Shown: positions 14,759 through 40,500 of the stretch, one piece after another
Layout: every line of letters starts with the position of its first letter
Numbering within the stretch: the first letter of the stretch is position 1
Assembly (NCBI RefSeq): GCF_963675165.1
Contig: NC_087385.1
Coordinates: 2,294,501 to 2,358,500 of the forward strand
Source of the DNA: Halichondria panicea
Taxonomy: Eukaryota > Porifera > Demospongiae > Suberitida > Halichondriidae
Length of the DNA stretch: 64,000 nt
Direction of reading: 5' to 3'
Notes under the pieces: model-generated
Told to the model about the DNA's origin: nothing
What the model saw: the letters and a program-made list of their open reading frames with translations, nothing else
Database searches by the model: none
Program-made: the position numbers and the translations under genes

Positions 14759-15662
14759 TTATTTGGAACATACTACACAGTTAAGTTCTTTAGCTGGTTC
14801 GTAGGGTGGACAGGGCAGTCCACTGCAGGATGCTTCAGCATGCTGAAACCTAAAACCAATGGTACCGCCACCAGCACTCCCGGCAATCGATTCTTGGTCT
14901 TCGTCAACGCATTCGAACCTAGTTCGACTCCATTGATAATAACTAGTCATAATGTAGCCATAGTACTCTCTTGTCCATGATTTAGGGCATGTAGCTTTAG
15001 CTGGAATCATGATGATCTTGGCTCGGTTAGAGACCTCACATACAGCACAAGGAATGTTGTGATGGTTAACTCCTTGAATAGGTTCATTATATTCTCCTCC
15101 ATAGACATACGCATGATTTCTCACTCCTCCTGCGTGTGGAAGAATATATTCTGGGTCTGTCGGCATACATAGGTAATTGCCACCGCCTCCTTTGTGTGAG
15201 TAATGCGTCCCCCCGGCAATTCCGGAGTAGAGAAGCTCTGTTCCAGGAATGTCTGGACAGGAGCTCTTTCCCCATCGTGTGTACACCACCCCTCCACTGG
15301 CTGGTCCGGAAGGCCCTTGTGATCCAATTTTACCCTCTGGTCCAGAGCCTCCCCTTAAACCTGGTGACCCGTCTCTGCCTGGCGCCCCAGGTAGACCATC
15401 TCGACCGTCTCTGCCTCTCAGAATCTCGATATAGGTTGTCCGATTGTTTTCTGTTATTGTGATGCCTCTCTCTTCTCTTTGCAGAATATTTCCTGTATGT
15501 TGTACATTTATATAGTAGGGATGCAATTACACATAATTTTGATATCTACGTACGTGACTACAATGTCATGTAGAGTCTAATTTATGAGTAGATCTTACCA
15601 TTTGCTGCTGTTGAAATGCAGAAGGTGATGAACACAACTCCAGACAAGTTCTTCAAATACAT
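14759..15662 (-). CDS. Secreted short-chain collagen (sponge collagen C4-like)
   Basis: Two exons, read 15662-15599 and 15492-14759, in phase, 265 aa. Exon 1 encodes a signal peptide (MYLKNLSGVVFITFCISTAA). Exon 2 has a short spacer, about 14 Gly-X-Y triplets (RGRDGRDGLPGAPGRDGSPG and onward) and a large Cys-rich C-terminal domain with VVYTRWGKSSCP, HKGGGGNYLCMP, YGGEYN, CAVCEVSNR, MIPAKATCP and a final ELNCVVCSK. This architecture matches the proteins annotated as short-chain collagen C4, first described in freshwater sponges and found widely in sponges and cnidarians. Expected to be secreted to the extracellular matrix. The collagen stretch is very short, so the globular domain probably dominates its function. 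The stop is TAA at 14761-14759. Confidence 0.88.
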
Positions 15663-16026: not shown

Positions 16027-19000
16027 CTAAATAATATCGTGTGAGCCTAACATATTCAAATACCAAAAATGACCAGTTCTGAACATGACTACAGTGTAAT
16101 GATTGTCACCAGATTGGCAGTAGCCATGCTCATTAGTTCTCCATGATACAGGGGCATCCTCGAACCCCCACACAGTCACAGCAACCCAGGGTGGTCCAGA
16201 GCCATCCACAGTTGACACATAGTCCCTGAGGTGGAATAAAACCAGCTCCTTTAGCTCACTATGTTAATCCTAATTGTAATCATACACAAAATGCACTGAA
16301 CAGACTCACTAATTAACTTAAGAGGACATATGCAGTGTATGATTGTAGCGAAGAACTGTACACAGTTCTACATACAGTTATAAATATTATACATAAGCAC
16401 CTTAATTTTTCCAATAGATGCACAATAGAAGCAGGAGACATCATTCCAGTCCACCTTGTCCTGATTCCATGCTGACACTCTGAATGTGGCTCGGGTGGTA
16501 AAAACCTAGACACATAACTGTCAACAGCTGATCCTTCGTAGAACGTAGTCAGTCCACCGTTAGCAACAACCCCTAGCCAAGTGTGGAACTCCTGTACAGT
16601 GCAGCTTAATACTTCACCATCCTCAACCAGACCGTGTGGGTGATCGCCTCGTATGGTTGGCATGGGGAAACTTGCAAGGGTTTCTTTATCCAGCTGGCAG
16701 ATTTGTTTGATGGCTTTGAAGTCCTCCAAGAACTTTGGTTCATCATCCACATCTAAAGTGCATGTGTATGGGACATTGTAAATATGATTTTAGTGCACTA
16801 TAAACACTATTAAGCACATGTAGGTACTCATGAAAAGCAAAAAGGGATAAATGGACTTTTTCAAACCTACCTAGCTTGAGAATCAAAGACATGTTCCTGT
16901 ACTATAAGTTATAAATTAGTTAAACACACCATTTCCATTCCAGCAGATGACAAAATCGACCTCCAAGTCTAGTCTCTCCGTGAGACACCACTTCACTCTC
17001 TCGTAGTTGGGCTTCCCAGGCTTGAAGTGAGGGGCTGTTAAGTCCAGCTCAACCACTGCAAAGGGTAACATGAGTATAGTCAAGCAGTTCTAATAAATGC
17101 TGGATTAGACCTATACCAGTATGTTAAATGCTAGACGAAATATGGCTTTACAGTCTTAGTAGATTCCAGGCGGCAAAAACGCTAATACAAACAGCCTGGA
17201 ATCGAGGCTAGTCAATCAGCTACTTTGTGCATAGATAAAGAAGAGAGGGATTGGCAACAAAAGCGACCTCAAATAACCATCCGTGTTGCCCCGGCTTTAC
17301 TCGAGGCTGTCTACTTTTACATGGGAAGAAAATCCAGGCTGGGATTGGCCGGGGAACGGTTGAGGAGACAAATGATTGTCTTACTGTCAGTATAACAATC
17401 CTGCTGCTGAACTTAGACTTCATTTCCATGCTTGAGGCTATAAGTGACCCAAGACACTACTTAGTTAGACAATCTTAGCTATATTATAGGTGCTATTGGT
17501 ACATAGCCATCAAAAAACGGTGAAAAGAGGTGAAAAAAGCGCTATGTACCGCTAGCTCTTTCTCAACAATCTAGAAAAAATTTTGGGAATTTCCACATAA
17601 TACCCATCATCAAGAAGCATGGAAATCAAGGTTTGGGGATTCTTAGAAAGCTCCGTGTAAGGCCTCAAACATAAAAAAGTGTTTCGCGGCGTTACGGCGA
17701 GGGACAACACGCATCGTTTCAGGATTAAGCCACACCCCCTGCACAAAAGTCTACGTTTTTCCGTTGCCAATCCCTCTCTTCTTTATCTATGCTTTGTGCT
17801 AGTTAAAGGAGCTAGGTGATGTAAGAGAATTATTATACTAAATCGCTGATTCTTGGTATATCTCGATGGTCGCCCTTGCAGCCCAAGTTGCTCATACGTG
17901 TCCTTGTCTAAAGAGAGGATCAGTTTCCCTGTACAGAAACAACAGACAAAGAATGTTATTGACAAAGGCACAATTCATAATTGCTATAGCCTAAGGTTAA
18001 ATATTGATACTAAGCGGTCATGTGCCATTTGTCATGTAGCATTTTTGGTTTGTGAGAATATTCGTACCTGTTGGTAGTAGACAGTAAACATTGTCAATGT
18101 CAATTCTTGTTCCGACCGAGAGGGCAGATATACTGCCTAGTGCTATGTACTTGCTAATGATGTCAGGCTGTATTATGTGACTCAGGGAAAGGTGTGCTGT
18201 GTAGTACGACTGGGGCGTAGAAAACAGTAGCTCGATGTAGTCAGGTACAGTAGCACTGTGTGGCAATAGCACCTCCAACTGAGTAAAGGGAGTAACAAAG
18301 AATTGCTAGCTGTTGTTACTGTACATGTACATGTAGTTAGATAGAAACACCTTGAATCAAGGCGTGGTGGTTAATATAATCGACGAGTATAATAACAGTT
18401 CTAACTCCTTCTGGGTCAGTCAATCTGAAGGAAGCCACATATACAAGATATTGTCTAGAAGCCAGACTCGATCATCCCATTGTAAGAGGTTACTTAGTTA
18501 GCCTAGTTCCCAGGCCAATTTTTCTTTGACCTAGCGTTCAATAGAGAGAAAAGTCGAGCCAGGAACAAGGCTAAAGTTGCTAGAACCACAAGAAAATACC
18601 TCAGCTATTGTTATTCCTATTGTGAGATTGTTCTCAGGTAGGGGTTTTCCACTACACGAGGTCATTAGAACTACATGTTGGGATTTTCCCATTTCAGGAG
18701 TACCTTAGCAGCAAGGGGTTTTCCCATACAAGATGTCAAGACAGATATTCAGCTATAGTATAGTACTGTAAGAAGGTATAAGGCCAACCTTGTACAATAC
18801 ATGTACTAGGAAAAATGATCTGACAACGTTAAAATACACTCTACCCGAGTAGACTCGCAAACCGCCACTGTTGCACAGCAAACAGTAGACTGGTCAAACT
18901 CCATGTAGAGACTTGTGTTGCACAGTCAGCATTATCAGATAAGATTTTAAGTGGCTGCGGTTTTCCGTCAGTATACTGCATGTGATACCAGAGTTTTCCA

Positions 19001-19518: not shown

Positions 19519-22500
19519 ATGCTCAGTAAGTGTCATCTAGTGCATGTTCAGAGGAATTCCTATCCAATCCAAAACTTCTGAGCTAGCTAGCTAGCTACAG
19601 CTGACAAAAAAGCACTCAAACATTTATTAGACTGTCAGTAAATCTAGTGCCTATTGATAATACTTCCCTGGCCTGGTAGGTATCATACATACTCTGAGAA
19701 AGTATATTGGTGCTAAAATATGTCCTAGCTGGTGTATGATAAGAGACACGAGTATCCATGGTGATAGTGTAGCTTAATTAAACCATATCTGAGCTATTAT
19801 ATTCTAGGAATGAGCACACTCCAAATCTAAAGCAAGCATAGTTGTTATTGCAATGTCTTACTCACATCTGTTGTTCACTTGCAGGCTGCCTCAGATTCTG
19901 CAGGTCAGGAGAAAGTGATGCTCTCTTTCAGCAGGCGGTTAAGGTTTGTGCGTTAGTGCATCGCTTGTTTTAGATACTTGAATAAGGGTATCTGTTGGAT
20001 GAGCTAACACCAACATAAATTGTCAGGAACTTCTTTACAGTTCATAATAATACTGATTGCAAAGCGTCATGTAAGAACAGCTTTGTAAATAAGAAACAGC
20101 AATTGGTCAATCTATCCTGAGTCATGAATACTGTCAGTCAACGATCTAATAATCTAATCATGTCCCCAGGCTGTGAGTGGTGTGCCTGATGTGGAGGTGG
20201 TGTGGGTGGGAGAAGAAGTGGAACCAGACAAGAACCTTATCTACGTCTTGGCATCGTTCGACACACCTCGCTACAACTCTCTGCTCAACAAGTGCAGGTG
20301 AGCCATTGCTCATTTCTGTCTCTAGGCAACAGTAGGCAATATTAGAGAGTCTCTTGTTAATCCGTACATGTATAGTTGGTTACATCGTAATTTGACCGTT
20401 AGTATGTCGAATCATTTGTTTGACCCACCTTATGATTGGAAACTAGTTGAACCGTTGCCATGGAAGGATACAGTACACCATAAAAAGATTCTCACTATTC
20501 CCCCCACAGGATAATCGGGCCTGCTGTCGTACTGGCTCACTTGGAACATGGATGGGTGAGTAGCAGTGGATAGTAACTCTATAGTAACTTCTTGTTTCTA
20601 TAACTACCAAACTCCTACACAGTCTCCTTCAATGAATGTATACACTATAAAACTTAAAACAGGATGTGTACTGTACGTAGGTTACAGTAGTACTTATAAT
20701 AATAGAAGCAGTCTTTTCGCCCTGCTTTGGACATTGTTTCTCAAATAGTGTATAGAAGACAGTAAATTGTGCTTTTATTTCTACCCACCCCATATTTAAT
20801 AAATAACGCGTTCTCTATTACGGTATGTTAACCCCCCTCCCCTCCTCAGCCATTCCCGGCTAGTTCCCAACCAGTGTTCTCTCTGGCCATGCATGGAGTG
20901 GTGGCTTGCTTCACTCAGGCAGGGAACAAAGAGAACAGAGTGAGTCATTGTCGTCATGCAGCTACACAGTAACTATGCAACTGCCCTTTTATAGTGGTGG
21001 ATGTTAGTACCCTGATTGATCATTTCTTCTTTTAATAAGCTCAGTGTGCTTCAATGTAGGATGTAGATGTAGCACTTTGCCTGGCTAAGAGCTGCTATAA
21101 GCACACGCATGCACTTATAGTGCGTAATGGTGTTGAGTAGTGCAGAGCCTTAACCCACTGTAATGTACAATCATGTAAGTCCCAAATTTGGCCATTCTCT
21201 TGCAGCTAGTGAGCAGAACTCTATGCATGATTATAATTATGTGCTTTAAGTTTTATTGTCTGATATGGTAGTTTAGCTATAAAATTATTCGGAGCCGCAC
21301 AGGAATATGGTAAAGCTGACTGTGTGTTGTTGTCTGTCTATTCCAACTTAAACTGCTCAACGGTTGTAATGCGACGAATATTTACGGCTTCTATAGGCTT
21401 CTAGCCACGTTTCTAGAGTTATGGCTAGTTGCAGTCTCTTCAGAATCTTTTATAGCATCATCTGTTAGCATAAAGTTTCTATTTAACTTATGAGTTAGCC
21501 TTGCACTAAAGCGCTAGCTATGTATTAATCACAAAAAGCAGCAGCCATTGTGAACTTTGACCTCTCTGCAAGTCCTTGACAGGAAATGCACAGTGTTTCA
21601 CACTTTTGCTCCTCCTCCATAACACCCTAATACTTTTCACCAAAACAAAATATGCCTCAAGGGGTTAAATACTCGTTAAACCAGTCTTGTATATGAACCT
21701 GGTCGCTTCTATGTACAACTGTTAAGCTGCATTCTTTACGGCATCAGTTTCTCACTGTCTCATTTCAAATATCGTGTGGTACAGTATACATGAAATTATA
21801 AATGTACATGTACATGTGGACTTGTTGGGGCAATACTTATGCTAGCCGTCTAGTCGTACAAACAACCAAACACTCAATTTAGACCAGTAAAGTTGTACAA
21901 GGCTGGTTTGCTGGGACACCGTACAATGCTGAGTAGACAAGATACTGTAGCATCGCTTGGTATTAAGAAGTGTTGAGTACTATTCGCATCTGGATAAGTT
22001 ACTTCACACACACACCGAACCCTTTGATGTGAATCGTCTGGTCGTAGATAGGCTGACTCTAGAAAGATTCCGAACCGGTTAGAACTGTACTCACAGCGCG
22101 TACTCAGCGTGTAGTGGCCCTGCATGAGTACATCCAGTTAAATAATAACTGTATTGATGTACATGTATTGTTATGTATACTCTAAGATGAATAGGAAGTT
22201 GGAACGTGCAAGTGCACAGTTGGTAAATAATATAGTATTATTTTGTGCATTTGTGCATTTCACCCATTGTTCCTCTAGTACTGGTAGCTTATTTGTGCCA
22301 TACTGCATGGTTGACCGAACTAGTTTAACTTCCTATAGGTGAACTGCACGTACCCTAAGTTAGTAATACAATGCTGAGTTTATAAAGTAACTCATCATGC
22401 CTGTAGCTGGTTCACTTACAGGAGAGTCCATCGGTAATTCCTCTGTCGAGCACTGTCTCCAATAATGGTTACTGGCTGGACCCAGGTCACACGTTCTTCT

Positions 22501-25500
22501 CTCCGAGAAGCAGCCATGATAGAGATCAATTGGGGAGCTGATTAGACTTTTCAGTATGTTTAGATCGTTTTGAAGGGTGGTGCAGTTTGACTCTTGTATC
22601 TGCTGTAACTCATCTCGCACGGCTGCTAGCTCTAAGTTTAGTGACACGACTGTTGCAAGTGATATTAGCAGAGCCAGGATACACAATATAGCTATGCTTA
22701 ACAGTTTGTAGTCTATTGATTTCATGGAGTGTAGTCTGCTGTATGTTTCTGTGGGCCCCCAATTGAGGTGATTGTAGGATGACTCATCAGACCCACTTGG
22801 TAGTGGCCATCTGAAGAATCTCCTGTGTTCGTCATAGGCCGGATTCGATACCACGTTTTGAAATGATCCAGGATTTCTATGTGTAGGCGAATCTTCAGTT
22901 TCGAGCGGTTCATCTGTTGTAGATAATATATCAATGGGCGTGTCTTCATAAGAGTGACTTGACTGATAAGCACGGTTGTTTATCAAGCTTGACTCTAGTC
23001 TTGAGCTTTCAGTACTACTGCTTTTCATCGCTATAAAATCTGATGTTGGCTCCATCTTTAGGGAGCAGTAGACCAATTCTAGCTGCTGTGTTATGTTATG
23101 GCCTGTAATCTGACATGTGATAGTATGTGTCGCTCATAGAATGCCAGATTGTATGCATTGTGTCATTTTTAACAACAATGTGTTCTAATTTGCTAGATGA
23201 TTGGCTGTATATTTATGTGCGTAGTATGCTCCGTGCATGCAGGTCTAGCCTAACATTCAACTGTTGTTACGCGTATAGCAGCGAGGAAATAAATTTGACA
23301 AAATAGTTGGCGAGTCTATGTAGGGATCACCGAATAAATATTCTCTAATGTTCAATGAAGTGTGCATGCCTTAATCTATCTTAGGTAATCAGTAACCCAT
23401 GCACAGCAAGATTGCCAAATAAAACAATTATTCTAATCACCATGCAAGTATAGCTCACCAAATTAAAACTACCTGTTATACGGTATACATGTAGTAAACC
23501 TGTACATTCATGTATCAATGACATGCATCTTATACTATTATTTTGGTTACTCAGTTCCGATTTTAGTCTTGCTACATGTACATTGTATATACTATGGTGT
23601 TGATGCGTCCCATATTGTGTGTTAGTCAATCCAATTTCATTTTGACTATAATTTTATGTTCATAGTTATGTACGTATAATTATGTGCTGTTGATCATAGT
23701 CTTACAAATTTGTGCTTTAGATACTTGTAAGTCGCAACTAAAAAAATATTCTGTTTGTAAGGGCAGTGAGATTTTCTTGCACTATTGCCAGATCTTGTTA
23801 AACTTGGTTCCTAAGCTGTGATATATAGTCAGTGTTAGCAGTAATGTTGGTCATCAGGGATGATAGATTCTGCTGCAACTCTTGTAGCTGTACAACCTTT
23901 ATGCTCATTGCAACGGTTACTGCTATGCACAACACAAGACCCAAGATAGATAAGATAGATAATAGAGCTAGGCCATAGAATAATTTATTCGTAGATCGTA
24001 CACCACTGTGTTTTTCTCCAATCTCTGTGTACTGTTGACGGTATTTTGCTGCACCTGCCACTGATTGTTGGTAAAGAGGATTTATTCCTCCTCTGTGCTG
24101 ATGATACATGTATGCTGGATTGGCTGTGAGCTGTGTTGATTGACTAACTGAATGGAAAATTCCCATGGAGTCGACGTACTCGTACAGATCACTTGGCACA
24201 GAACTATGCTGTTGCGGTGACCTTCTAATCACGTCTTCATCTAGCTTCAGATAATCTGAGATTTTTGGTTCCATGTTCAGGCTTAGTCGTAGAAATTGAT
24301 TCGATTTGTGATAGTCTTGATACGTCTGTGAAGCTTTATAGTGTTAGGAAGAATACATGTAGTACTCTGTGTAATATGCAACTGCCACTGAAAACAGTGA
24401 ACATGTCCATTTAAGAAAATGCTGTATTCTTTATTGTATTCTTATATCCGTTTTAATGTTTGAGTGTAGTAACAGGATGATCATTGTCTTTAGGTATTTT
24501 CCACTGTGACATACATAGATGATACAAGGTCATCTATACGGAACTATCCAAAATGACCTTACTGCTCAAATCCCCCAAAATACAATGCTTAGTAAATTAT
24601 TGGGGCGAGTAAAGCGAGTCCATATACATATACCTTTTCTTCAACGTTGCATTTTTGTCTGTCTGTATTATGTGTGTATGTCGTGTACCAGCACGATAAT
24701 TTGCTTTTGGGACTCATGATCCTTTACCTAATTTACTCGATCATGCGCAATAAGCTGGCAATTATTATACATCGATCAGCTACAGAGACTCCTGAGGCCA
24801 CAGGCACGCCTGGCTCAAATGGGGACTCATGAGGTCACACAGGAACACCTGCAGCATCTGACTTGCTAGTTGCTACGAGTAGTAGAAGGTTGTTGTTTTC
24901 ATCAACAATAAATATTGATAATACTCGGTCAGTCCTTCAGTAATCAACATAATATAGCTACTGGTGTATGTCAGCAATTGGCAACACAGAGCTTAAACAG
25001 ACACAGACACTCCTGAGAGGCGGCAGGCACATCGAAAATCTCAATGTTTTGGAAATATCTATGGGATTTAGAAGCCCAAGGCACTGATTTAGTATCCCGA
25101 GCGGCTTCTAAATCACATGGACACTGTCAAAACAGTGTCTAGATTGCGCAAACCTTGCCTCAGCTTGACTATAATACAACAAGTTTACTTTGCTTGACAA
25201 CAGGATACTAAATAAGTTGCAGGTATACTAAGTCTCATAGTATACCTCCTCTGAGGCGCTTTTCCCATGTACTTCCATGTAGATCTTATCTAGTGTCTAT
25301 AAGAGCTAATTTGTTACTGAACAGGTTACGTAGAACTAGACAAGTAAAATTTATGGTTTGTAGCACACAAAAAACCAAATTGCACCTAAGATAACCATTC
25401 CTCAAAACATTTTCCAGGGGAAGATTCCCCTCAATTAAACGTTTCCCCCTCCCAGCTAAAAAAATCCTGTATGAAACCCTGTGTAAAACTTACAGTAATG

Positions 25501-28500
25501 CTAATGGGAAACTGTTCAGTTGAACACTGCCTCCAATAGCGGCCTGTGGTTGGAGAGAGGTAACACTCAGCCGTTTTTTCATAGCAATTCTGATAGAGGT
25601 TGACAGGAGAGCTGATTTGATTTGTAAGGGTGGTGACATCGCTCTAAATTGTGGTCTGATCTAGTTGGAATTGGTTCTAGCTAGTCAAAAGCTGCGATAC
25701 TGTACTGTCCAGTTGTGTTACCCTTGGACCTGCTGTAGGTGTCTCGATGACTCAACACTTTCGGACAACATGTCCACTGAAGATTGTAGGGAAAGGTGCT
25801 CTTGCTGCAACTGTTGTTGGGCCGATGACAGTTGAGTCACCATATTTTTGACTACTTCAACCTCTTCCAGAGTTACATTCAATTTATTCTCCAAAATTTC
25901 AATATCTTGTAAAGTGTGAGTACTATTAGCTGGAGGAGCTGTGGTATATGCACAATTCTTTCCTTGATCTTCCGAAGGCAACTGTACACGTGTAATGGCT
26001 AATTGTTGCCAAAAAAGGTGTACTTTGTTACTGCATGTATAACACTGTCTGTGTTTAATACAGCAGTGTGCTTTGTTGTCAAGAGTAAGAGTGTTCTTAT
26101 TTACTTTTGTTATTGTATAAACCAGTTTGACAACAATAGCTTATTGTGTTCTTCTGCATGCCTTGTTTTATTGAACAGGTGCATGCACACGTCCGATTTA
26201 TGATGACAGACACAATCAATTGTTACCTTTTTAGTTACTGTATATTCTACCGAGATTACGCCCACCCTAATTGAAAGGTGGGATGAGTGAATAGTTTTGT
26301 CTCGAAATTACGCCCACTCACTAAGAAACTATTATAAAGTATTTTCTATCGGAGGCCTACCAGCGCTTGAAATACATTGAATACAACAATGGTATAATGC
26401 ATTTGTGTGTAAAGTAGTGGAGATGTCCACGCAAGGCTACGGTTAGCATTATTTTTTTTTTAGAAAACAAATTTGTTAAAATTTGTGTTTCATCCAAGGA
26501 TATAGGTCACAGTATAAATGCTTGTCTACTTGGCGTTCAGCATGGTCTTGTGTCTTGTGATAATAAACCTTGCTCCACAATAACATTGATAAACCAGACA
26601 GCAGATCAGAAAAGTACTATTAAGCTACATGTACATTAAACCTGAAACGAACGGGAGTCCTGCATGGGGTCACAGGCACGCCCAGAGCAGATCACAGGCA
26701 ATTTTTCACAGTATAGTAGAGGACTATTGCTTGTACTTGTCATCCTGCAAGAGGTCCCAGGCTAGGCTGAAGCATACGTATCTATATACCGTATAGTGGG
26801 TAATCTTCGTGGGGCAAAATATTCGTGGTTTTCGTGGTTGGAGGTCTGACCACGAATATTTTACCCACGAATGAAGCGACCTTGCCTACCTTTACTTGCA
26901 GTGCAAGCTAAGCAACCACGAAAATATTACCCACGAAATGTCTCAATATTGCTGAACCACGAATATTTTGTCCCCCGAAAATTACCCGCTATACGGTATA
27001 TGGCTGAGGCTATCACCACGGTACAACCATCTAAAAACAAATCATCACTACAACTATCATGAATCATCACAGTACAATTAATTAAAACTCCAAATTTTGA
27101 ATTCAAACGCTGCTGCTCCCACATGACACCATGTGTGACCATGTAGTTATACATAACTAGTTGTACAAAGTGGATGCAATAGGACATCTGATAATAGTCA
27201 GTTTGCAAAATAGGTCCACATCACTGTCGCCAGGTATGAGCCAATGACCATCTGCATCCTCTCTTGGGTAGGTTGTATCGCACACACAACGAACATTCTG
27301 GTTCGAGTCGTTTGGTCGCAGATATGCTGACTCTTGAAAGATTCCAAACCGTCTTGATCGATGCTCACATCGCATACTCAGTGTGTATTGTCCCTGTATA
27401 GAAGTGAATAACAACAACTGTCATCAATTTATTTGCCTACGTATAATCCCATTATATAGCCTTACACATATAATACTAGTGGAAACTACACCTGTCACCT
27501 GGACATGTCAGTGCATATATGCATGTACGTATCTGTATATTGATTAATGCAGAGAATAGAAAAGTTTGTCTCCCGCATACATGTATATACAAAATTCTAT
27601 GGAGCTTAATCCCCTAAGTATATATAAGAGCTAATTTATTAGTCGTTTACTGAACATATAATTACTACACTACAGTTATACTAGGAGAATGCAGAGCATG
27701 TTTGGGGCGAGCGTGGGAAAATTGTGTATTTGGGTTCTCTTGTTACAAGGTGTAGCCATTATATTATTGCAAACCTTGCCAAATTCTAAAACAGCACAAC
27801 AGTAGATCTAATGCGGAGCCTAACCAATATCTCACGTATAAGTTGGTAAAGGATCATGAATCTCAAAAGCAAATATCGTGCTGGTCCATATATACATATA
27901 CAGACAGACAGACAAAATTGCAGCGTTGATGACTAGGTAGGGACTCGCTTTGCTTGCCCCAACTATACCGTATAGCGGGTATATTTCGAGGGTGTAAAAT
28001 GTTTGCGGTTTTTTCACTGATTCAGCACGTACCGCGAACATTTATAACCCACGAATTTAATATCACATGCATGTGCATGCTGTAAAAAGGCTGCTATTCG
28101 CGAAAACCTTTCTAACAATCTGTACTAATGACAATGTTCTTACTGTAAGATAAAGATTAACAACAATGCATGCATGCATGTACATGTAAGACTTACAGTT
28201 ATGCTAATGGGTAGCTCTCCAGTTGAACACTGCCTCCAATAGCGGCCCATGGTTGGAGAGAGGTAACACTCAACTGTTTGTTCATAGCAATTCTGATAGA
28301 GATTGACAGGAGAGCTGATTTGATTTTTTAGGGTGGTGACATCGCTCTGAAGTGTGATCTGATCTAGTCGGAATGTGTCCACTGAAGATTGTAGGGAAAG
28401 GTGCTCTTGCTGCAACTGTTGGTAGGCCAATGAGATTTGAGTCACCATATTCTTGAGTACGTCAAGTTCTTCCATAGTTGTATTCAATCTGTCCTCCAAA

Positions 28501-31500
28501 TTTTCAAAATCTTGTGGAGAGCGGGTGCTATTAGCCAGAGCTGTGGTACATGCACAATTCTTTGCTTGTTCTGCTAAAGTTTCTTGCTGACCTATCTCAT
28601 TATGAAGGCTTGCTTGTGCTGTTATAATCCCCAACACCGCTGCTATGGACAAGACAACAGCCAAAGTAGCCACCACTGCTAAGCAACTTAGTTTGCAGCC
28701 TGTTGTCTGCTTCTTGAGCATTAGTTGGCTGTAGATTTGTTTAGATGTCCTAGATAAACTAAACAGATGATTATATTCTGTTGTATCTGTCTTACCTACG
28801 TCTTCATAAACTGGGTTTATTGTTACATGCTCAAATGAGTCTCCCATAGTGCTGGAATCTCCATTGTTAGTGGTCTGTTCGTAGTCAGGTTCAACGTGTG
28901 TTATGTAGCCACTGTTGTACACCATGCTGTGTTGTCCTTCTGATCTGACTGAGCTGTATATATCCTTCTCACTTATCTCCATCTCTTCTGGCTAGTTCAA
29001 TGTCTGATACATATAGTACTATAATAGTTATGTGCGCTGCTTTACCTTATGATAGGCAAGCTGTATAATGGCTAATTACTTATTCTGAACAGGTGTTTTA
29101 AGTATATACGTTCTTTGTTATGGTACAAACAGTATTACAATAGCTTATTGTAGACTGTTTATTGTTTTTCTGCTTCTCTTTTCACATAGTGCTGGTGCAT
29201 GTGATGTGTTGCTGTGCATGGTATGATCGTAACCAGGAGTGCATGGATAGAAGTATCTGACTACCAAGCACATTTGATTTTCTCTGTTGACAGTGCAAAC
29301 ACTTGTTTCATCAAAACTAAAAAACATTTGCGATGTGAACGTTGCTAGGATTGCCAGGAAAGAAAAGCGCGAAAAAGCGAAGAAACAAGAAATTCGGCGA
29401 GTACATAACTCCAACGTCATTCACATGTACTGTTTAAGCTATTTTTGTTTTGGTACTTTTTCTTGGCCAATCCTTTCACATTGCAATTATAGTGATGTTT
29501 ATGATTGTGTTTTTGATCTGACAGTGTTTGAGCAAACACACTAGTGTTGGATGTGTGCGGGGTGGAAGTATTCCAAGTTTATATGACCAGCAGATAAAGA
29601 CCCTTTCAAGAGGCATAGATCTAACTACTTCTTCTACAACAATGAGTACTGTGTACTGTGTTCTTTTATATCATAGAAAGTCAGTGTTAGTAGTAATTAT
29701 TCAAACCATTGTTTCACTGTCCAAAGGTGAATTCTTATTGTAGTGCAATGACTGTGCATTTTACCCAACCTGTATTTTGATTCTAAAATTCCTTATCAAC
29801 AGTAGGTCACTCGACTGTACATGTTCATGACATTGTAACGGATTGGAGTTATGCACTCGCCAAATTTCTTGTTTCTTCGCTTTTTCGTGCTTTTCTTTCC
29901 TGGCAATCCTAGCAACGTTCACATTGCAAATGTTTTTTAGTTTTGATTCCCTTTCTTTTTCATTACAGTAGTACATTAATAAATTAATATGACGTTGCCG
30001 GATTAATTTGTCATCGTCCTGTAATCTTGTTGAAGATAATAATTATGTAAGTGGTCGTTTGACAGAAGTATAATTATTATTATACTCCTCAATAATGAAA
30101 GTGAAATACCTAAGAGGAACATGAAGAAGCAAGAGAAGTTCAAGAAGAGAAGACAGGACTGGAATATAAAACATTATTATTTTATTCAATCATTTATCTA
30201 TATGATAAAAATAATTGCAGCCATGTTTATACTGTAGATGTACTTCCAAGTGCAAAAGCATGGAGGCCTACAGTCAGTGCATACGTCTAGCATGCATACC
30301 TAAAGTGAGAGAATGTAGAGCTGAGACGTTGAGCTGAAGAAAGGAGGTTTTGATGTCACAGCCACGCCCATCTCATAAGTTGCCATGTGCGTTGCTGTGG
30401 CAGTCATTTAAAGATGGCGGAATTGCGTAGGCAAGAGAAGTGAAGCATGAGAAGTCACCTGCTACCTCTTGGAAGCAAACGCAATTCTGAGAAAAACGCC
30501 CATGGTCCGGTTTGTAATTGACTAGAGGCTGAACATGTCTGTACAAGGAGGAAATGCTTTCCAAGAATATTACTTACTTACTAACTCAGTCAGACGAAAC
30601 GCGGTGAAATATGAAAATAGTGCAAATATCAATAGTAATGCATGAGAGTATTCATAGACTATAATATCGCACATTTAAAAGGCTAACTAAGCTATCTATC
30701 CAGTCCATTTCTTGCTGTGGCCTTTCCCTGCAGAAATAGAGCAGTCTAAACACGAATCAAAATGTGTGCAATAATTGAAAACACACACTACTGCACTGTC
30801 AATCCTATGTACAACCTACTGGTTGTACTAATACAGTATAATTATGAAGTAATCTCCTAAAAATTCCACTGCAATACACAGACACACACACACAGACACA
30901 CACACACAGTCAGCTTTACCTTATTCCTCGTGCTGCTACGCTACTATAGGCATAATTATGCATACGCTTACACACCATCAACAGACACACTTGTGTGATG
31001 TTATGTGCATTTTCATCGTAAGTGTATTCGTGCACTCTAGCTGTGATTGCTATGATAAGTATACGTATAGTATGACGGCGGTCACAACACAACGAAGCCA
31101 TGCATTGTCTAAAATGTGTGGGAGGCAGATCTCCTAATCATGACCAGCACTCCTGTTGTGACTAATAGTCCCCCGGGTTTATTTCAGTGCGAGTTAGCTG
31201 GTTAATTTTCACCCGCTTGAAATATCCTGTTACCCGCTTCCAACAAGTAAATTTTCTACTTGCACCTTGTCGATTACCTGCTTAATATTTAAAACCCACG
31301 TTTTCACCCAATTCTGAAAGAAAGCCATGTTGTCCCAAATATGTACATTGTACGTTGAGCAATATGCCATTGTCATGTGATCTCTACCTACTTAATTTCC
31401 TTGTCAGAAAACTTGTTCATTGTGAAAAGGAGGTGCACATAGTAAATTTTGCAGACACACATGATCGTTCTATAGGACTTCAATTACTGTTGGGCATCTA

Positions 31501-34500
31501 GTGATGACTAAATTGCATGTGTACACTAGACCACTCGGCAGTATAGCATGTCCTGGGGTGTTCTTGATCGGATTGGTCACTTCACAAGCACATTGCACGT
31601 TGCCCTGTCCGTCAGGTCGTATGTAGGTAGACTTGAGGAGGGAGCTGTCATCTCTGTTGCAACTCTGCTCACAGTGCATGCTCAATGTGAAAAAACCCTG
31701 TCAATAGTGTGTGGTGTACACATATAAATATAGATGTCATTGAAACGTGAGCACTTTATAACTCTGTCAACAATGTCCAAACGATCCATAACACTGCACA
31801 ATGTACTTCTTACATAATTATAGCTCCACTAAGCTGTTAAAAAAGTAGTCTACAGTGTGTAATAATATCTATTGAACGTAGCTCTGTTCTTATAACGAAT
31901 CCTCATGAACGTTAGGAACATGCATGCACACTTATATGCATGATATTATAACTTACATCTCTTGTAATAGGCTGAGAATTTGTGAAACATTGACTCCAGT
32001 AATTGTTTCCATTTGCTGTGCACATAGTCGTATCATCGTAGCACGCCTGGTAGAGGCTAATGGAAGTACTTTGTCTAGTAGATGAGTTCATCATGCTGTT
32101 TACTTGTGCTGTCAAATTATCCAATGAGGAAAGTAAAACTATTTGCTCTTGCTGTAACTCCTGTTGGTTTGCAGAAAGCCGAGTCACATTATCCTCAAGC
32201 TGCTGTATTTTAGGATCTTTTAGATCTACTGCCTCCAAGCTCTGAAATGTAGTCGTAACGTTTTGTGCTTCTTCCTGGAGTATTTTTATCTCTCCTTTTA
32301 GGCCTGCTACTTCTATCTTTGTCACTACCAGCGCTGTTACAGACAAGCTACATGCTACTATGCACAGTAGAAGTAGCAATACCATTGGTAGAAGATTGCT
32401 TGGTTTACCTTTGTATACTTGATCGTTGTTCGACTGCACCTGCTGCTTTTTTCGTGCCCAACTGAAAAGACGGTTGTATCGTCTGGTCTCATACGCAGGG
32501 TTAGCCATCATTTCATTGCTTTCCTGGTTGTCTTTTGCATCTGTCATACTAGTCACTTCGTACACCGTATTGTACTCCAAACTCGTCTCCATCTGCTCGG
32601 CATTGCCATCTGCAGATTGCAAACTGTTGTTCTCGTACTCGTTGATGGTTCCACTTCGTCCAGGTAGCTCCATTCTCACTCGAGTTGTGCTGGTAGCAAG
32701 TCACTCTACAGTCATCACCTATTGTTTCAATGAATTAACATGTCAGGATTGTCCACTCAAATATGGACATGGTCTGATCTGTAAAATCAGGCTATGGAAG
32801 TATTGCAGATAATTACCATTGTTTTTCAGGGTGGGGTATTTAATGCTAAACGATTCATCAGTTGTTTTAATTCATGCTATGGAGTAGAAAGTTGTGTTTT
32901 GTGATATTGATCCCCGTCCCCCGTCCCAAGTTGTTGTATGCAAGTTTTCACTTATGCTGTGTAATTTTAAATTTCGAATGCACATGTTTTTCCTGCGCAG
33001 GAGAAACTGACACAGCTCGTGCGATTGATGGGTGGAAAGGTAGAAGGGGACTTCACAAAGAGAGTAAGTTGTAGCTACTACCGTATAGCGCGAAATTTTC
33101 GAGGCACTTATATTTCGTGGATTGGCCTCTAAAAGCCATTTCGTTGCACAATGTTCGCGGAATGACTGCTTACCGGAAGCCACGCCTTTAAATATTTGCA
33201 TGATAGCAGGTAATTCTAATTAAAGAACAATTTTCGTAGACTTAATTTTCGTGTACAATTCTAACCCACGAAATCCGCGAAAATTAAGCCCCCCGAAAAT
33301 TTCGCGCTATACGGTATTTAATGGGTTGTGAATAATTTCAACCCATGAATGGCTGAGGAGGTGCGAAGCACTTGATCTTAGTTAATTAAGGTCACTACTT
33401 TTAGCCGAGTTTTTAGTGCTGTATAGGCTTAAAACGTAGTTGGGTTATAATTTATTTTCGCCAATTTTGCTCAGAAGCAAGATACACAGTGGAGCAGCTT
33501 GTTCTTGAGGTCAACACAAAACTGATCTTTCAAGTAGGGTTTTGAGTGAAATTGGCAAAATAAAATTATAAATACCCAACTGACATTTTAAGCTTACAGG
33601 CACTAAAAACTCAGCTAGAAGTAGAGAAGGTAGGAGAAAACCAATGATTAGTGACCTTCATTAACTACGGTGAAGTGCTCTGCACTGCGAATGGCCTGTT
33701 AGCTTTAATGTCAAGTTCTTAATTCCCACACCCTATACAAATAATTATGTCATGGCATGATGTTCAGCCAATTTTGGGGGTCTATATGAAGTTTATAGTT
33801 TAATTACGTAACCATATATGCATATAATTATTCTCCTATATGCTTTCATTCCTATAGCGGACCTTTAACATTCACATTTATGTTAATCTAAGTACGCATA
33901 TTGTACAGTACATAGCACAGCGATTACGTTCAGTACCAGTTATGTAGTTAGTAAACAGCATGACTGTGTAACTGCTATATAGCTATAGGTGTTCAGTTAA
34001 TTTTAGTCAGCCATACACGTACATAGCTTCTTGATATCTGCTATTATGTGTTACAATGCAAATGAGGACGCAAGAAACTTTTTTTCTTGTGGCAGGTCTC
34101 TGGAGAACTCTATAATACATGTATATACACGTAGCTCCTATGATTATGGAAGATGGTCTATACATGCAATTTGATAGTAATCTCTCCAAATCAACCGACA
34201 TCTTACGTGTACGTACGTACATTCATGCATTGTAATTTTGGAGACAATATAATTCATGTGCATTCCAATGACAAAATTCAGCTGGTATCAGAGTATAATA
34301 CTCAGTACTGCAAATATAGAACATATAATTATATTATGCATACATGTATATACGATACAGTCGTATTGATTACTATACTGTATGCCTGAGTGTCTATGGG
34401 TTTTTGACGCCGTACACTGTACGTGTTGGTGAATAATGTATTGCTGTATAGCGGGTAATTTTCGTGTGATAAAAATTCGTTATTTTCCTGGGCAAGCTGA

Positions 34501-37500
34501 CCTCGACGAAAATTTACCCACGAAAATGTAGGCGTGGTTTACTGAAACGCATGCAATGCAGTGCACCTAATGACATTTTTTACTCACGAAATCACCGCTG
34601 TTCAACTCCCATGAACATTATTTGCTATACGGTATAATTATAGGTACGTATGTACATGTATATGATGACCCGTATATACGTATGTATGATGATCCATACC
34701 ATGGAAAGTACTAATTGTTTTGTGAGTGTAAATCAATGGACTTGTACACAACTAATTGTAATCAACTACTTTGAGTCCTTCTTTCTGCTAGTGAAATATC
34801 CCACTCCACCCAAAATCGCACCCCCAACGAGAGCTCCCACGGCTAGAGGCACTGCTCCAATCCCTGAGCTAACAACGCCCACGCAACCTCCTACAGCAAC
34901 TCCAGCTGCACTGAATTTTGTTATCCTCATTAATATTTCTTTTTTCGTGTGGTCATGTACTACGATCGGTTGAAGCTCGATATCTTGTTGAAAATCTTTG
35001 TCTCTTGTATCTTGACGATTCTGTATTCGTTCGGCATTCATCGAGTAGAAAGCGTTTTTAGTTTCAGGTGTTGAAATAGTGTCCAAGCAACCGAACCACA
35101 ATTCTGTGAACCAATATTCGCGATCAGGTAGGCTGCGAACGTCATAGTAACCGGCTGGTAAAATTTTTATAGCATGTGCTACATCTTCTGAAACTTTCGC
35201 CTCTGTTATTATTAGATTTCGTACCTTTTTATCAAACTTAAGAATTTCTGCAACAAATTTTTCAACTTTCTCGCTTGGGCGAAGTCTTGACCAGCTAACG
35301 TGAAAATTTTCAATCGTATTCGCAAATGTAAGAACAATGACAGTCTTCTTCCAAATCTCCTCACTAAAAGCTTCGGTTAAAGTGCGAATGACGGAAGCCT
35401 CTGGATTTTCAGTGCCCGGCACGAACCGTGTTACACTTGAGTTGATACAGTATATCATCAAATCAATGTTTTGTGAGCACTTGTCAACCATTTCTTGGAC
35501 ATAGGCCTCTTGGTTCTGAGTCCCATCGTATAGTCCCGGGGTGTCCCAAACTGTGGCTAACACATCATCTTTCCTGCACTGGTACTGCTTGACCTCTGCA
35601 TGATAAAAATAAATTTCAGAGATTGGATGTTTATTATGCCTCGGTGCACATGCACAAGCGAGGTATACGGTAGAGTGTGTGTGTGTGTGTGTCTGTGTGT
35701 AGACTGCTGCAGCTGCTCAAGGATCAATAAAGTGCAATAGGCTTCTAGTTATGTTTTCTTGGATCTTAATTCGTGGATTTGCAAAATAATGCTTCGTTCT
35801 CGAGTTATGTTTACTTTTGCTTACTTGGAATGCCATTGCAGCCTTTTCAGAAGAGCACATAGCCAAACTTGTTTACCGAGTGTTGCTACTCTACTTAGTA
35901 GTTAGCTCTCTGCACTAGAACGCTAGCTATTGGTAGCTGCAAGAGTGAGAAGAGAGCTGCAATTAAGGCTCTGCTGATGCAGCCATTAGTTTTAGACTCA
36001 AACTTTTGTTTTTAACAACAATCATGGGTCGATCATTACCCACTCTTTGAGTTTGCATGCAACAAATTGCAAAAATGTTCATCATGACGGTGTATAAGTT
36101 CGTAGCTTTATGTTATGTAGCTTTGGCATCTCCACCGAGGCATCAGCACCTGCGGTGCTTTCATTTATTTGCTTAGCTATAATAATAATTATGTAGTACA
36201 CTTGTAACACAGCGTGAGAAATTATTGCTACAGTACACCCCTATAGTATACTTTTCATTTCCAAATGATACTCACCATCAGGGGTCATAATTATTATGCA
36301 CTGTGAAAAATGATATGTGACTTCAATACGTGCAGTCTTTGACATATGTATAAGTTTCCCGGGAGTTTTAGAACCGAAATGGGTGGTACCAGAGCCACTA
36401 CATAGACTTAAACATCACGTGAACCGCTTCTGGTTGTACTATTGGATCGGTGCTATAGTGACAGTAGTCTGTTTGCTTTCAGATTAGCCCCAGCTTTTCA
36501 TGTTTAGCTCAAAAAACTTGTTTGCAAGCTTTAGTTTTACTGTATAGCTAGGCTACTACTGTAATGGGCCCTACCAGTGGTGCATGTCTTTAGCTGAGTG
36601 TTGCTGTCATTTTCTTTTGCTTCTCCTTCACCATAGATAGTATCTATTCCTTCATCCTTGATCTTCAAGCCAAGTATCCCGTTCACGAGTGATGACTTCC
36701 CACTGCCTGCTTTACCGGTCACTAAGATATGGATCTCACGGGTCTCCTTGATATGACCTTCAGAAGTAGCCATACTCAACTCTTTGAAGTTGTGGACACT
36801 ATTTTTCTCCTATCAGTAGATCTACAGTAATTTACTGTATGCATTTACTGTGTAGGTACAGTATTATGGGACTGTTTACTTTACTAATTCTGTTTCTAGG
36901 ACACTAGATCATCTGATATAATGAATACTCTTGTAATCCAAATTTAGACTTGTAGGCCTATTTTTACATTTTGATCTCTTTAACAAAAATGGATACCGAG
37001 AACAATGAAGATGGTTTTCGAATAATGGAAGATAAAGGAAGCGATTTGGACCTTTCAAGGCTTTCTTCCGAAGTCAAGAGTCACCTAAGCTCTACAAAAG
37101 TGGCTGCCATTTTACGCAGTGGCAAGTCCATAGATATCCTTATTTGTGGTAAAACTGGCGGTGGAAAATCAACTCTAATAAACGGATTAATGGGAGTCAA
37201 ACTTATGGAAAAAGAGGCTGCTAAGGAAGGTGACAGTTTAACTCACTGCACCACTCGAGTGGATGAGTACAAAACGATCAAGGATAAAATTACTGTTACT
37301 GTGTGGGACACTCCTGGTTTACTGGATGGCACGGACAAGCAAGACGATTATTTGAGGGAAATTGAAGACAAATGTCCTCCCATACACCTCAAATTATTTT
37401 GTATAAGTTGCAGCCAAACACGATTTGTTTCTGGACCAAATAATGCTGATAATGGTGATTTCTTGGTCATGAAGAAGTTCACTGAAGCCTTTGGAATGGA

Positions 37501-40500
37501 ATTTTGGAAAAATACCGTTATTGTCCTTACTATGGCAAATACGGTAGAAGCCTTCAAACCCAAATGGAAATATTTGGCACCATCCGACAAACAACAAGAA
37601 TTCACGCAATACATCAATGAATTCAGGTCAAAAATTCGTTCTATCCTTGAAGACGATATCAAACTTGATAAAGACATTGTTACAAAGATGAAAATTGTTC
37701 CTGCTGGTCACTATGATGATAGAAAGCTTCCTGGTCGTGATTACTGGCTCTCTGACTTTTACTTTGAATGTCTGGACGCCATTCCCTCACCAGAAGCCAA
37801 AGGAGCTCTCCTCAATTTAAGCCTAGACCGGTTCAAGATGAAAAGTGAGGTGGTCGACAGTAACTTCAAAGAAGATGCTGAAATGCAACCGATTGTTGTT
37901 GATGTGGAGAATGGTTTTGTTATAATTTCCGAAACGATTGAAAACTGTTCAATACCAGTTGGGTCTGCAGCTCCTAACGATCAGCCTACTGAAGGTGGCA
38001 TAGGCACCAAAGGAGCAGCTGGTATCGGTAGTGGTGTGGGGGGTGTGGTTGGGGCTGGGCTTGGGTTTATCGGTCTTCTTGGTGGCCCACTCGCCTTTTT
38101 TACGGTTCCGGCTGGAGCAGCTGTTGGTACTGCATTGGGAGCTGGCCTGGGGTACGTCACAAAGAAAATTATCGGCTCAAGTGAACCGTCAGCCAGCAAC
38201 GAGTCTAAAACTGAGAAAAATTGACATTAATTAGCTAGCTCTATTTATTATATACTCACAAAACTTTGTAGGATCCAAAATGTTTACAGAATGATATTTT
38301 CTTAGTTTGTTGTTAACTCAGTATTTCTTTTGAGATTAAAACTTGGTAAATATAATGTGGTTGCTGTTCATGCAGGCTATTATACATGTACATTAATCTT
38401 CTTTGCATTAGGTAACCCACCTGATAGCCGGACATGTTGGCAGCACCAAGTACCATGTAAGCTTACATGAACTGCATCTCCACAGTTTGTAGGGAGATAT
38501 CAACTCGTCACATTGTAGAGAGCTAGGTTGTCCTTTTTCCGAGGTTTAATATATTTTGTAGGAAATAACATTTAGGGGGCAGATCAAAGCAATATATATA
38601 TATTTAGGTATATTAAGTGTTCTTATAGTTCCACTGTGTGTGCGATGATTAAATATTCATTCTACATAATTTTATATGTACAAGAATCAAATGCGAAGGA
38701 TTTTTGAGCTCATAAATACTTTTTCATTTAACATGTACTCTTATCTCCCAGGTGGCTCGAAAACTCCGGCTCCCAGTGTTACTACCATCCTGGGTGGAGT
38801 CCTGTTGGGGTGATGGCCTTAAACAAGTGATCTACGCCACCGACCCAACCACCTTCCCACCTCATCAGGCACCACCATTCACCGGAATTACTATCACTGT
38901 TACAGGACTCGACGAAAAAGCAAGGTCAAAGGTCAAGAATACGTGCTCGGAGAACGGAGGGAAATATTCCGGAGAGTTAACAAAGGACGTTTGCACTCAC
39001 CTCCTAGTGGGGAACAAGTCCAGTAAGTGCATGCATGTGGGTCATAGTTTATAATTATAGTATCTTCAATACTCAGCTGGGTTTTTTCCTAAGATGCTCC
39101 CCATAAAAGTCACGAAAGTCACGTTATTTCCACTATTGTCTAAGATTTGTATGTACATTTGTTGTTGCATTCAGCACATTGAAATGATTAATAAAAACTA
39201 GAGGATATTTTACCCGAGGCGCGCGTGGGCGGCCACGGGTATAGTAGTCTGTTGGTTTGTTTGTATAATGAGTGAGTCTGCTTACCTGGATGGATAGCCT
39301 TCATACAACAAGTAATAGTAGCAGATTTTGATGTTAAAGCCTCATTGTCGAATAAAAGCGAGCAAAAACGAACTTGCATGTTGGCAGCTAGCTAACTACA
39401 CGCGGCCTTTATTCGAAACAGATTCCGTATTTGCAGCTGAAGTGATCCCGTACCCTAATTATGGAAAAGGGTAACTAAAGTAGAAAGCTAGAATTGTGAC
39501 TGCTTCGAGTGGATCCTAGCGCCAAGGCTTCTCTGAGACTCTAGGCTTCTTTGCTGTGATCCTAATCCACAGTACATGTCTCATGGTCTCATGTACAGGC
39601 CTACCACTAAAACTCTATTCTCAGCATGCCTCATGAGTCCACTCTGATTTTATTGCTCCTGAGTTGCTGTGCTAGACATACATACTACATGCACTGGATC
39701 GTCTGGTTTCTTTATGCATGTCACCAGCCAGGGCTTGCACTTTAGTGCTCTATAGTTTCTCATTTGACACTCTGCCTAATAACTTGTGGTATTGAGGTAA
39801 TTTATACTACAAACGCACACACTTTTGGCATCCAGGTGAGTGAACACACACAGACAGACAGACTAATAAACCAACAGACTAGTATAACACACCAGAGGAA
39901 GTCGGACATCACTTGAACTTTCACTAATTATGACCTTTTAATGACATTCCAGGCCAAATTACTTTTCGTTTTTGCTGACTCAGCAGTAGAATACGACTGG
40001 ATTTAGCTTGTATGGCTATTATATGCTGATAGGGTTAGGTCCAGTAACCATCACAGACACCAACACAACAAGTTGTCAACAGATTCAGCGACAGAAACCG
40101 TGCAGAAACATTGTCTCATAAATCAGTCGCCCTCTATGACATGGACTCGTGATTAGGCCGCCCAACGTTTAGAGGGCAGCTGAAATATAAGACTAGCAGA
40201 AGTACAGTAGACGTTACTGCTGAGTCAGCAAAAACGAAAAGCAATTTGGCCTGGAATGTCATTAAAAGGTCATAATTAGTGAAAGTTCAAGTGATGTCCG
40301 ACCTCCTCTGATAACACACGGCTGCCTACACGCGGCTGCCTACACGCTGAACACACACACACAGACAGACTAATAAACCAACAGACTACTATAACACGCG
40401 GCTGCCTACACTACACGCCGAACACACACAGACAGACAGACTAATAAACCAACGGACTACTATAACACGCGGCTGCCTACACTACACGCCGAACACACAC

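Follow-up and report, generated by a model that had tools for sequence, protein, structure and literature searches.

The stretch analysed here, 64,000 nucleotides of the sponge Halichondria panicea (the window; G000:C9:2294501-2358500, from a 131-Mb assembly with 39 contigs), holds an array of five related units within one intron of TOPBP1. We lean towards reading these genes, from their sequences, as clustered single-pass type II surface recognition receptors of Halichondria panicea. That they form a family is near certain, and sequence comparison places the array, on contig C9, as a small, outlying part of a multigene family that extends across the genome. An earlier sequence-only reading had treated the array alone; many further members are found genome-wide.

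The C9 array and its relatives across the genome

The array reaches exactly from the stop codon of gene A through the ATG of gene E (window 21874-32673). All five units lie on the minus strand, opposite to TOPBP1, and are transcribed in the order E, D, C, B, A; their parts are as follows, with TM denoting the transmembrane helix.

22420..23055, minus strand: gene A exon 1, with a tail of 118 amino acids (NPAY), TM helix, short stalk and first head part (3 Cys); donor GTAAGT
21874..22119, minus strand: gene A exon 2, with the second head part (5 Cys) and stop; open frame, CAG acceptor
23798..24274, minus strand: gene B, truncated, with a tail bearing two NPxY, TM helix and the start of the stalk; coding 24274..23801, then TAA
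25494..25977, minus strand: pseudogene C, part of D exon 1 in near-copy, stop- and frame-broken on three-frame reading; without tail and without exon 2
28197..28982, minus strand: gene D exon 1, with a tail (NPVYED and four YxxL/I/V), TM helix, stalk and first head part (3 Cys)
27157..27393, minus strand: gene D exon 2, with the second head part (5 Cys) and stop
31957..32673, minus strand: gene E exon 1, with a tail (NPAYET), TM helix, stalk of significant heptad periodicity and first head part (3 Cys)
31470..31697, minus strand: gene E exon 2, with the second head part (6 Cys) and stop

Genes A, D and E are intact; each has two exons separated by a phase 0 intron of the form GTAAGT...CAG (300, 803 and 259 nucleotides, respectively), and their proteins have 293, 340 and 314 amino acids. 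For gene B, head profile searches found no head exon, and C retains 84-91% DNA identity to D exon 1 across blocks of 165-190 nucleotides. These models bear out, with exact coordinates, the three complete genes, one truncated gene and one pseudogene of the sequence-only reading, together with its common plan of tail, TM helix, stalk and Cys-rich head on the minus strand of a single TOPBP1 intron and its fixed intron position. Tails and heads have both diverged, as it had claimed. The D and E proteins are 43% and 32% identical to A. A genome search with the D protein recovers A exon 2 (E-value 1.2e-24) and exons 1 and 2 of gene E (7.5e-11 and 8.8e-8), and by sequence the homology of A, D and E far exceeds chance. 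The open frame of D exon 1 also occurs in the database as protein P0001, on two contigs. Another database protein, P0003, shares 77% identity with C over 93 + 75 amino acids and 61% with D over 202, which makes it the nearer to C and shows that the database holds a relative of C whose frame is open.

Genome protein searches with five queries (D, one C14 member, two second exons, and E) returned, in that order, at least 46, 79, 52, 20 and 33 matches at E-value limits of 10, 1, 1, 1 and 0.1; these sets overlap. Family loci are the C9 array, five regions of contig C14 (3.06, 4.49, 5.83-5.96, 6.12 and 6.28-6.37 Mb) and one of C4 (4.329 Mb); other genome matches are weak and mostly confined to the stalk. 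Profile searches of the readable loci gave 41 matches to the first head half and 43 to the second, double hits and fragments included. We listed 39 first exons with an in-frame donor, 38 of them distinct, with GTAAGT in 29 of the 39 donors and a length of at least 140 codons in 25 of the 38. A second exon within 1.5 kb allowed 34 pairings, among which 29 carry 3 + 5 or more Cys (some without a complete first exon) and the other five have too few Cys or are doubtful. The intron measures 49-93 nucleotides in 22 of the 34; pairing sought phase 0 sites only, so that phase is assumed there and its independent check is the RefSeq protein P0007 alone, whose exons do meet at sites of this kind. Nesting in a TOPBP1 intron, as claimed earlier, is a property of the C9 array and not of the family, given that 25 of the 29 eight-Cys pairs lie on C14, with three on C9 and one on C4. 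Many C14 units are fragments, and the broken and partial units on both C9 and C14 fit the birth-and-death pattern previously suggested.

P0007 is annotated as "uncharacterized protein LOC135347949 isoform X2 [Halichondria panicea]", and both of its exons match C14 without a single difference (C14:5945355-5942406). Its first exon (5945355-5944603) is joined to a second exon starting at 5942615, bypassing two others: a nearer second exon (5944547) and a degraded first exon (5942838). This junction is a RefSeq prediction that may have a basis in RNA-seq. If such joining from unit to unit is real, second exons would be interchangeable cassettes. The best matches of P0008, P0027 and P0002 in this assembly are 36%, 65% and 77% identical, so these proteins would derive from a different sponge, from a divergent haplotype or from a unit that the assembly lacks.

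Tails, stalks and heads of the predicted proteins

Every first exon with a tail of at least 15 residues (22 of 22) has a 19-residue window averaging 2.4-3.6 in hydrophobicity after a tail of 45-118 residues; in gene A the peak window covers amino acids 119-137. Members thus present the type II layout, in which a tail at the N terminus is followed by a single TM helix, a heptad stalk and the head at the C terminus; the charge-free tail layout and lack of a signal peptide suggest a putative type II orientation. Variants of this plan occur. Two members at C14:4491637-4497676 have 12-14 residues before the TM helix, with no Tyr motif there, and retain the eight head Cys. A signal-peptide-like start replaces the tail in the 5.83-Mb gene of C14, and database proteins P0004, P0011 and P0041 have, by eye, a similar start.

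The tails carry Tyr motifs. NPxY occurs in 9 of the 22, against 0.002-0.034 expected per tail under shuffling, and in all four C9 tails (NPAY in A and E, NPVY in D, two copies in B); the D tail adds four YxxL/I/V against 1.15 expected by the same procedure. On C14, six of the seven tails compared from 5.94-5.96 Mb have YEEV or YEEI, and all eight full tails compared from the 6.3-Mb cluster carry LYEHVEMQEQ(Q/K)SHYMTI and no NPxY. We also scored the immunoreceptor tyrosine-based inhibitory motif (ITIM) as (S/I/V/L)xYxx(I/V/L), a loose consensus, which is present in 12 of 22 tails (0.02-0.43 expected per tail under shuffling). Its carriers are the eight 6.3-Mb tails, where SHYMTI is one inherited motif, and, with one each, A, B, E and one 5.9-Mb gene; D has none. 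From sequence, then, the tail motifs look like signals for signalling, uptake or both. The stalks, highly variable in length among members, show a 3.5-residue periodicity that is significant (p<0.05) for 16 of the 22 tested.

The head spans about 105-115 residues with eight conserved Cys, three encoded by exon 1 and five by exon 2, such that the intron falls inside the domain. All eight are invariant in 13 of 13 aligned heads, selected for diversity among the readable ones, and their pattern includes C-x-C and a final C-x-L-x4-C. Scans of Pfam and NCBIfam gave no profile at cut-off for any member scanned. The 13 heads, searched against Pfam at E-values up to 10 within the HMMER filters, matched no H-type lectin, resistin/PCSK9, C-type lectin or SRCR profile, and the C-type lectin domain was likewise unmatched in Pfam scans of other members. 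Sequence searches of PDB returned chance-level rows only, with no resistin/PCSK9 match in the profile search, and NCBIfam searches with three full-length members gave weak matches far below cut-off, the best (E-value 3e-5) being SMC-type coils in the P0007 stalk. Along with chance-level PHROGs results and a type II layout that includes the signal-peptide-like variant, these scans agree with the earlier description of an unrecognised type II receptor-like family.

Alignments rich in short exon fragments misplaced exon 2 over exon 1 and were discarded in favour of alignments A5 and A7. The P0007 head model (A7) has six strands, a predicted local distance difference test score (pLDDT) of 76.3 and a predicted template modelling score of 0.67, and the second model has a pLDDT of 61.6. 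On these models, the head is predicted as a disulfide-rich beta-sandwich. It is unlikely, in our estimate, that the heads are a diverged known fold set on a membrane anchor, either an H-type lectin (sugar-binding trimers) or a resistin/PCSK9 cysteine-rich sandwich. H-type lectins (the discoidin C-terminal domain, Helix agglutinins and SLL-2) are small beta-sandwiches of about 100 residues that appear among the nearest folds of both models, but with weak Z-scores and no Pfam match, and the sponge heads differ in their eight Cys on a membrane-anchored stalk. PCSK9 is the top row for the better model; the resistin/PCSK9 domains are also small disulfide-rich beta-sandwiches, and resistin has an N-terminal coiled-coil stalk. 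The top structural rows differ between the two models and Foldseek found nothing in PDB at an E-value of 0.001 or below, so that a known fold was not upheld and the comparison yields no strong match to a known family, as the sequence-only reading would have it. C-type lectin, TNF/C1q and SRCR folds are absent among the structural matches listed, an absence that excludes none of them.

A bacterial or phage origin was considered and rejected. With P0007 as the query, GTDB yielded 12 pattern matches but nothing related, although very near records were possibly omitted; PHROGs matches reached an E-value of 0.17 at best; and Foldseek against viral models gave nothing at 0.001 or below, the best (0.014) being an unnamed siphovirus protein.

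A proposed receptor function and its rivals

If these proteins are recognition receptors, the TM helix would anchor a cytoplasmic tail bearing NPxY and YxxV/I/L, the heptad stalk would form a dimer or trimer, and the C-terminal disulfide-rich beta-sandwich head, held outward, would be the ligand-binding part. The tail may be phosphorylated by Src/Syk-type kinases or may drive uptake through NPxY, and the role could be immune or self/non-self recognition, with soluble and short-tailed members acting as opsonins, decoys or non-signalling partners. The C-type-lectin-like receptors (CLEC, Ly49/NKG2 and ASGPR) are type II proteins with Tyr-motif or short tails, a stalk and a disulfide-rich C-terminal head, encoded in clusters with broken copies, and the sponge family resembles them in all of these respects. 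Unlike them, its heads match no C-type lectin profile (13 of 13), have their own eight-Cys pattern and contain one intron.

A second known layout is that of the class A scavenger receptors and collectin-12, which are type II proteins with a stalk, a C-terminal head and uptake motifs. The sponge genes share these features and differ in their large clusters and in heads without an SRCR or C-type lectin profile. They might serve in scavenging or feeding, as stalked type II oligomers (with a layout like that of MSR1, MARCO and collectin-12) that take in bacteria or debris through NPxY or YxxPhi with no discriminating immune role. The NPxY motifs of the C9 tails and of others, the stalk-and-head layout, and the filter-feeding of sponges all favour this reading, but the full 6.3-Mb tails lack NPxY, and their near-invariant YxxV-x8-YxxI is more signalling-like than uptake-like; we consider it rather unlikely. 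Less likely again is that heads and stalks are adhesion or matrix components, structural cell-cell or cell-matrix links whose copy number reflects dosage or tissue diversity. Variable stalk length, the signal-peptide-like paralogues and a collagen-like open reading frame nearby are in keeping with this, whereas a structural link needs no Tyr motifs, and broken copies, cluster turnover and 6.3-Mb heads that diverge more than their tails are more typical of recognition families.

Rates of nonsynonymous (dN) and synonymous (dS) change were compared in three sets of second exons (GYYTLS, 9 genes; GYYTTDI, 4; DTQYF, 10) and in first head halves from 5.83-5.96 Mb (12) and 6.3 Mb (8); A, D and E were too divergent for the test and were left out. 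Mean dN/dS is 0.55 and 0.51 for tails and 0.52 for the TM helix. It exceeds 1 in the GYYTLS second exons (1.21) and the 6.3-Mb first head half (1.27). Single pairs reach 2.4. That these genes are mere decaying duplicates, non-functional or marginal and without a part to play as receptors, is highly improbable: B and C are broken and many C14 units fragmentary, but 29 of 34 pairings retain eight Cys and readable splice signals, tail and TM dN/dS stand near 0.5, and RefSeq names an isoform for one locus. Within the 6.3-Mb cluster, the two head halves have dN values of 0.26 and 0.19, against 0.044 for the nearly invariant tail. Since dS differs as well (0.086 in the tail against 0.21 and 0.30 in the head), conversion of the 5' part may contribute to the low tail divergence. 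The pattern suggests, and does not prove, a match to paired-receptor clusters.

Several results weigh against recognition receptors. Mean dN/dS is below 1 in three of the five head partitions (GYYTTDI, 0.60; DTQYF, 0.65; 5.83-5.96 Mb first half, 0.40). Where dN exceeds dS, the difference lacks significance, with bootstrap fractions at or below zero of 0.22 and 0.28, and 0.07 for the variable middle part; a single GYYTLS pair in 36 reaches p<0.05, uncorrected. Stalk periodicity lies above p 0.05 in 6 of 22, including A (0.054) and D (0.068). Finally, a strict immunoreceptor tyrosine-based activation motif (ITAM) has a pair of YxxL/I arms at a distance of 6-8; the 6.3-Mb tails, at 8, agree with this in spacing, but their first arm, YEHV, is not a strict ITAM arm. 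Positive selection, tested as a claim in its own right, was not significant, so that the lineage-specific recognition system proposed earlier is plausible but does not draw support from dN.

Self/non-self and symbiont/food discrimination in sponges has long been a question for which few receptors have been put forward; clustered genes with Tyr-motif tails and diverging heads offer concrete candidates. More tentatively, they may constitute an undescribed clustered system with its own head domain. Such a system would include signalling members (ITIM/ITAM-like or NPxY) alongside short-tailed and secreted ones, would evolve through birth and death, and could splice a second exon to a neighbour's first exon; it would be a candidate for allorecognition or symbiont discrimination, convergent with vertebrate natural killer-type paired receptors. 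If confirmed, this would extend paired-receptor-like logic beyond vertebrates, to proteins whose head is unrelated. As the head matches no profile, domain-based surveys of sponge immunity would miss the family. Titles and abstract openings in the literature searched, a scope outside which most subscription papers fall, contain no description of it. Sponge SRCR and NLR families are lineage-specific immune-type expansions (PMC10855680, PMC12909245); the present family would be alike in its lineage-specific growth and is unlike in its domains, and the openings of those abstracts do not mention it.

The host gene and its neighbours

Two plus-strand exons flank the array.

20850..20939, plus strand: TOPBP1 exon preceding the host intron; BRCT region (PDB 6hm5, 2xnk, 3olc); donor GTGAGT
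33001..33063, plus strand: TOPBP1 exon following the host intron; same BRCT region; AG at 32999-33000

Joined, TOPBP1 exons match vertebrate TOPBP1 in PDB (6hm5, E-value 2.1e-34), and the peptides of these two align onto adjoining BRCT residues, so that no coding piece between them is seemingly missing. Downstream, BRCT matches continue at window 38887-39027, 41225-41287, 44123-44212 and 45446-45529. On this sequence evidence, the identification of the host gene as TOPBP1 is firm.

Between D and E, the intron also contains an inverted repeat (window 29310-29414 and 29843-29947) with arms 96% complementary. Its arm recurs at 97% or more in at least 40 genome places (itself included; 40 of 335 candidates scored), several as inverted pairs, which points to an element like a miniature inverted-repeat transposable element. 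Adjoining the array, between TOPBP1 exon 33001-33063 and a BRCT open reading frame from about 38716, sit two AIG1/GIMAP-like GTPase reading frames, 34769-35716 (minus strand) and 36956-38221 (plus strand), matching Pfam PF04548 at E-values of 8.4e-8 and 9.7e-15. Upstream of the array, the reading frame at window 14762-15526 (minus strand) has a short collagen-like stretch (PF01391, E-value 0.00047, below cut-off) and a Cys-rich C-terminal part, and an RPP40-like exon lies at 16316-16789 (minus strand; PF08584, E-value 9.5e-13). A tRNA-Trp (CCA) gene is located inside the TOPBP1 region at window 40931-41005 (minus strand).

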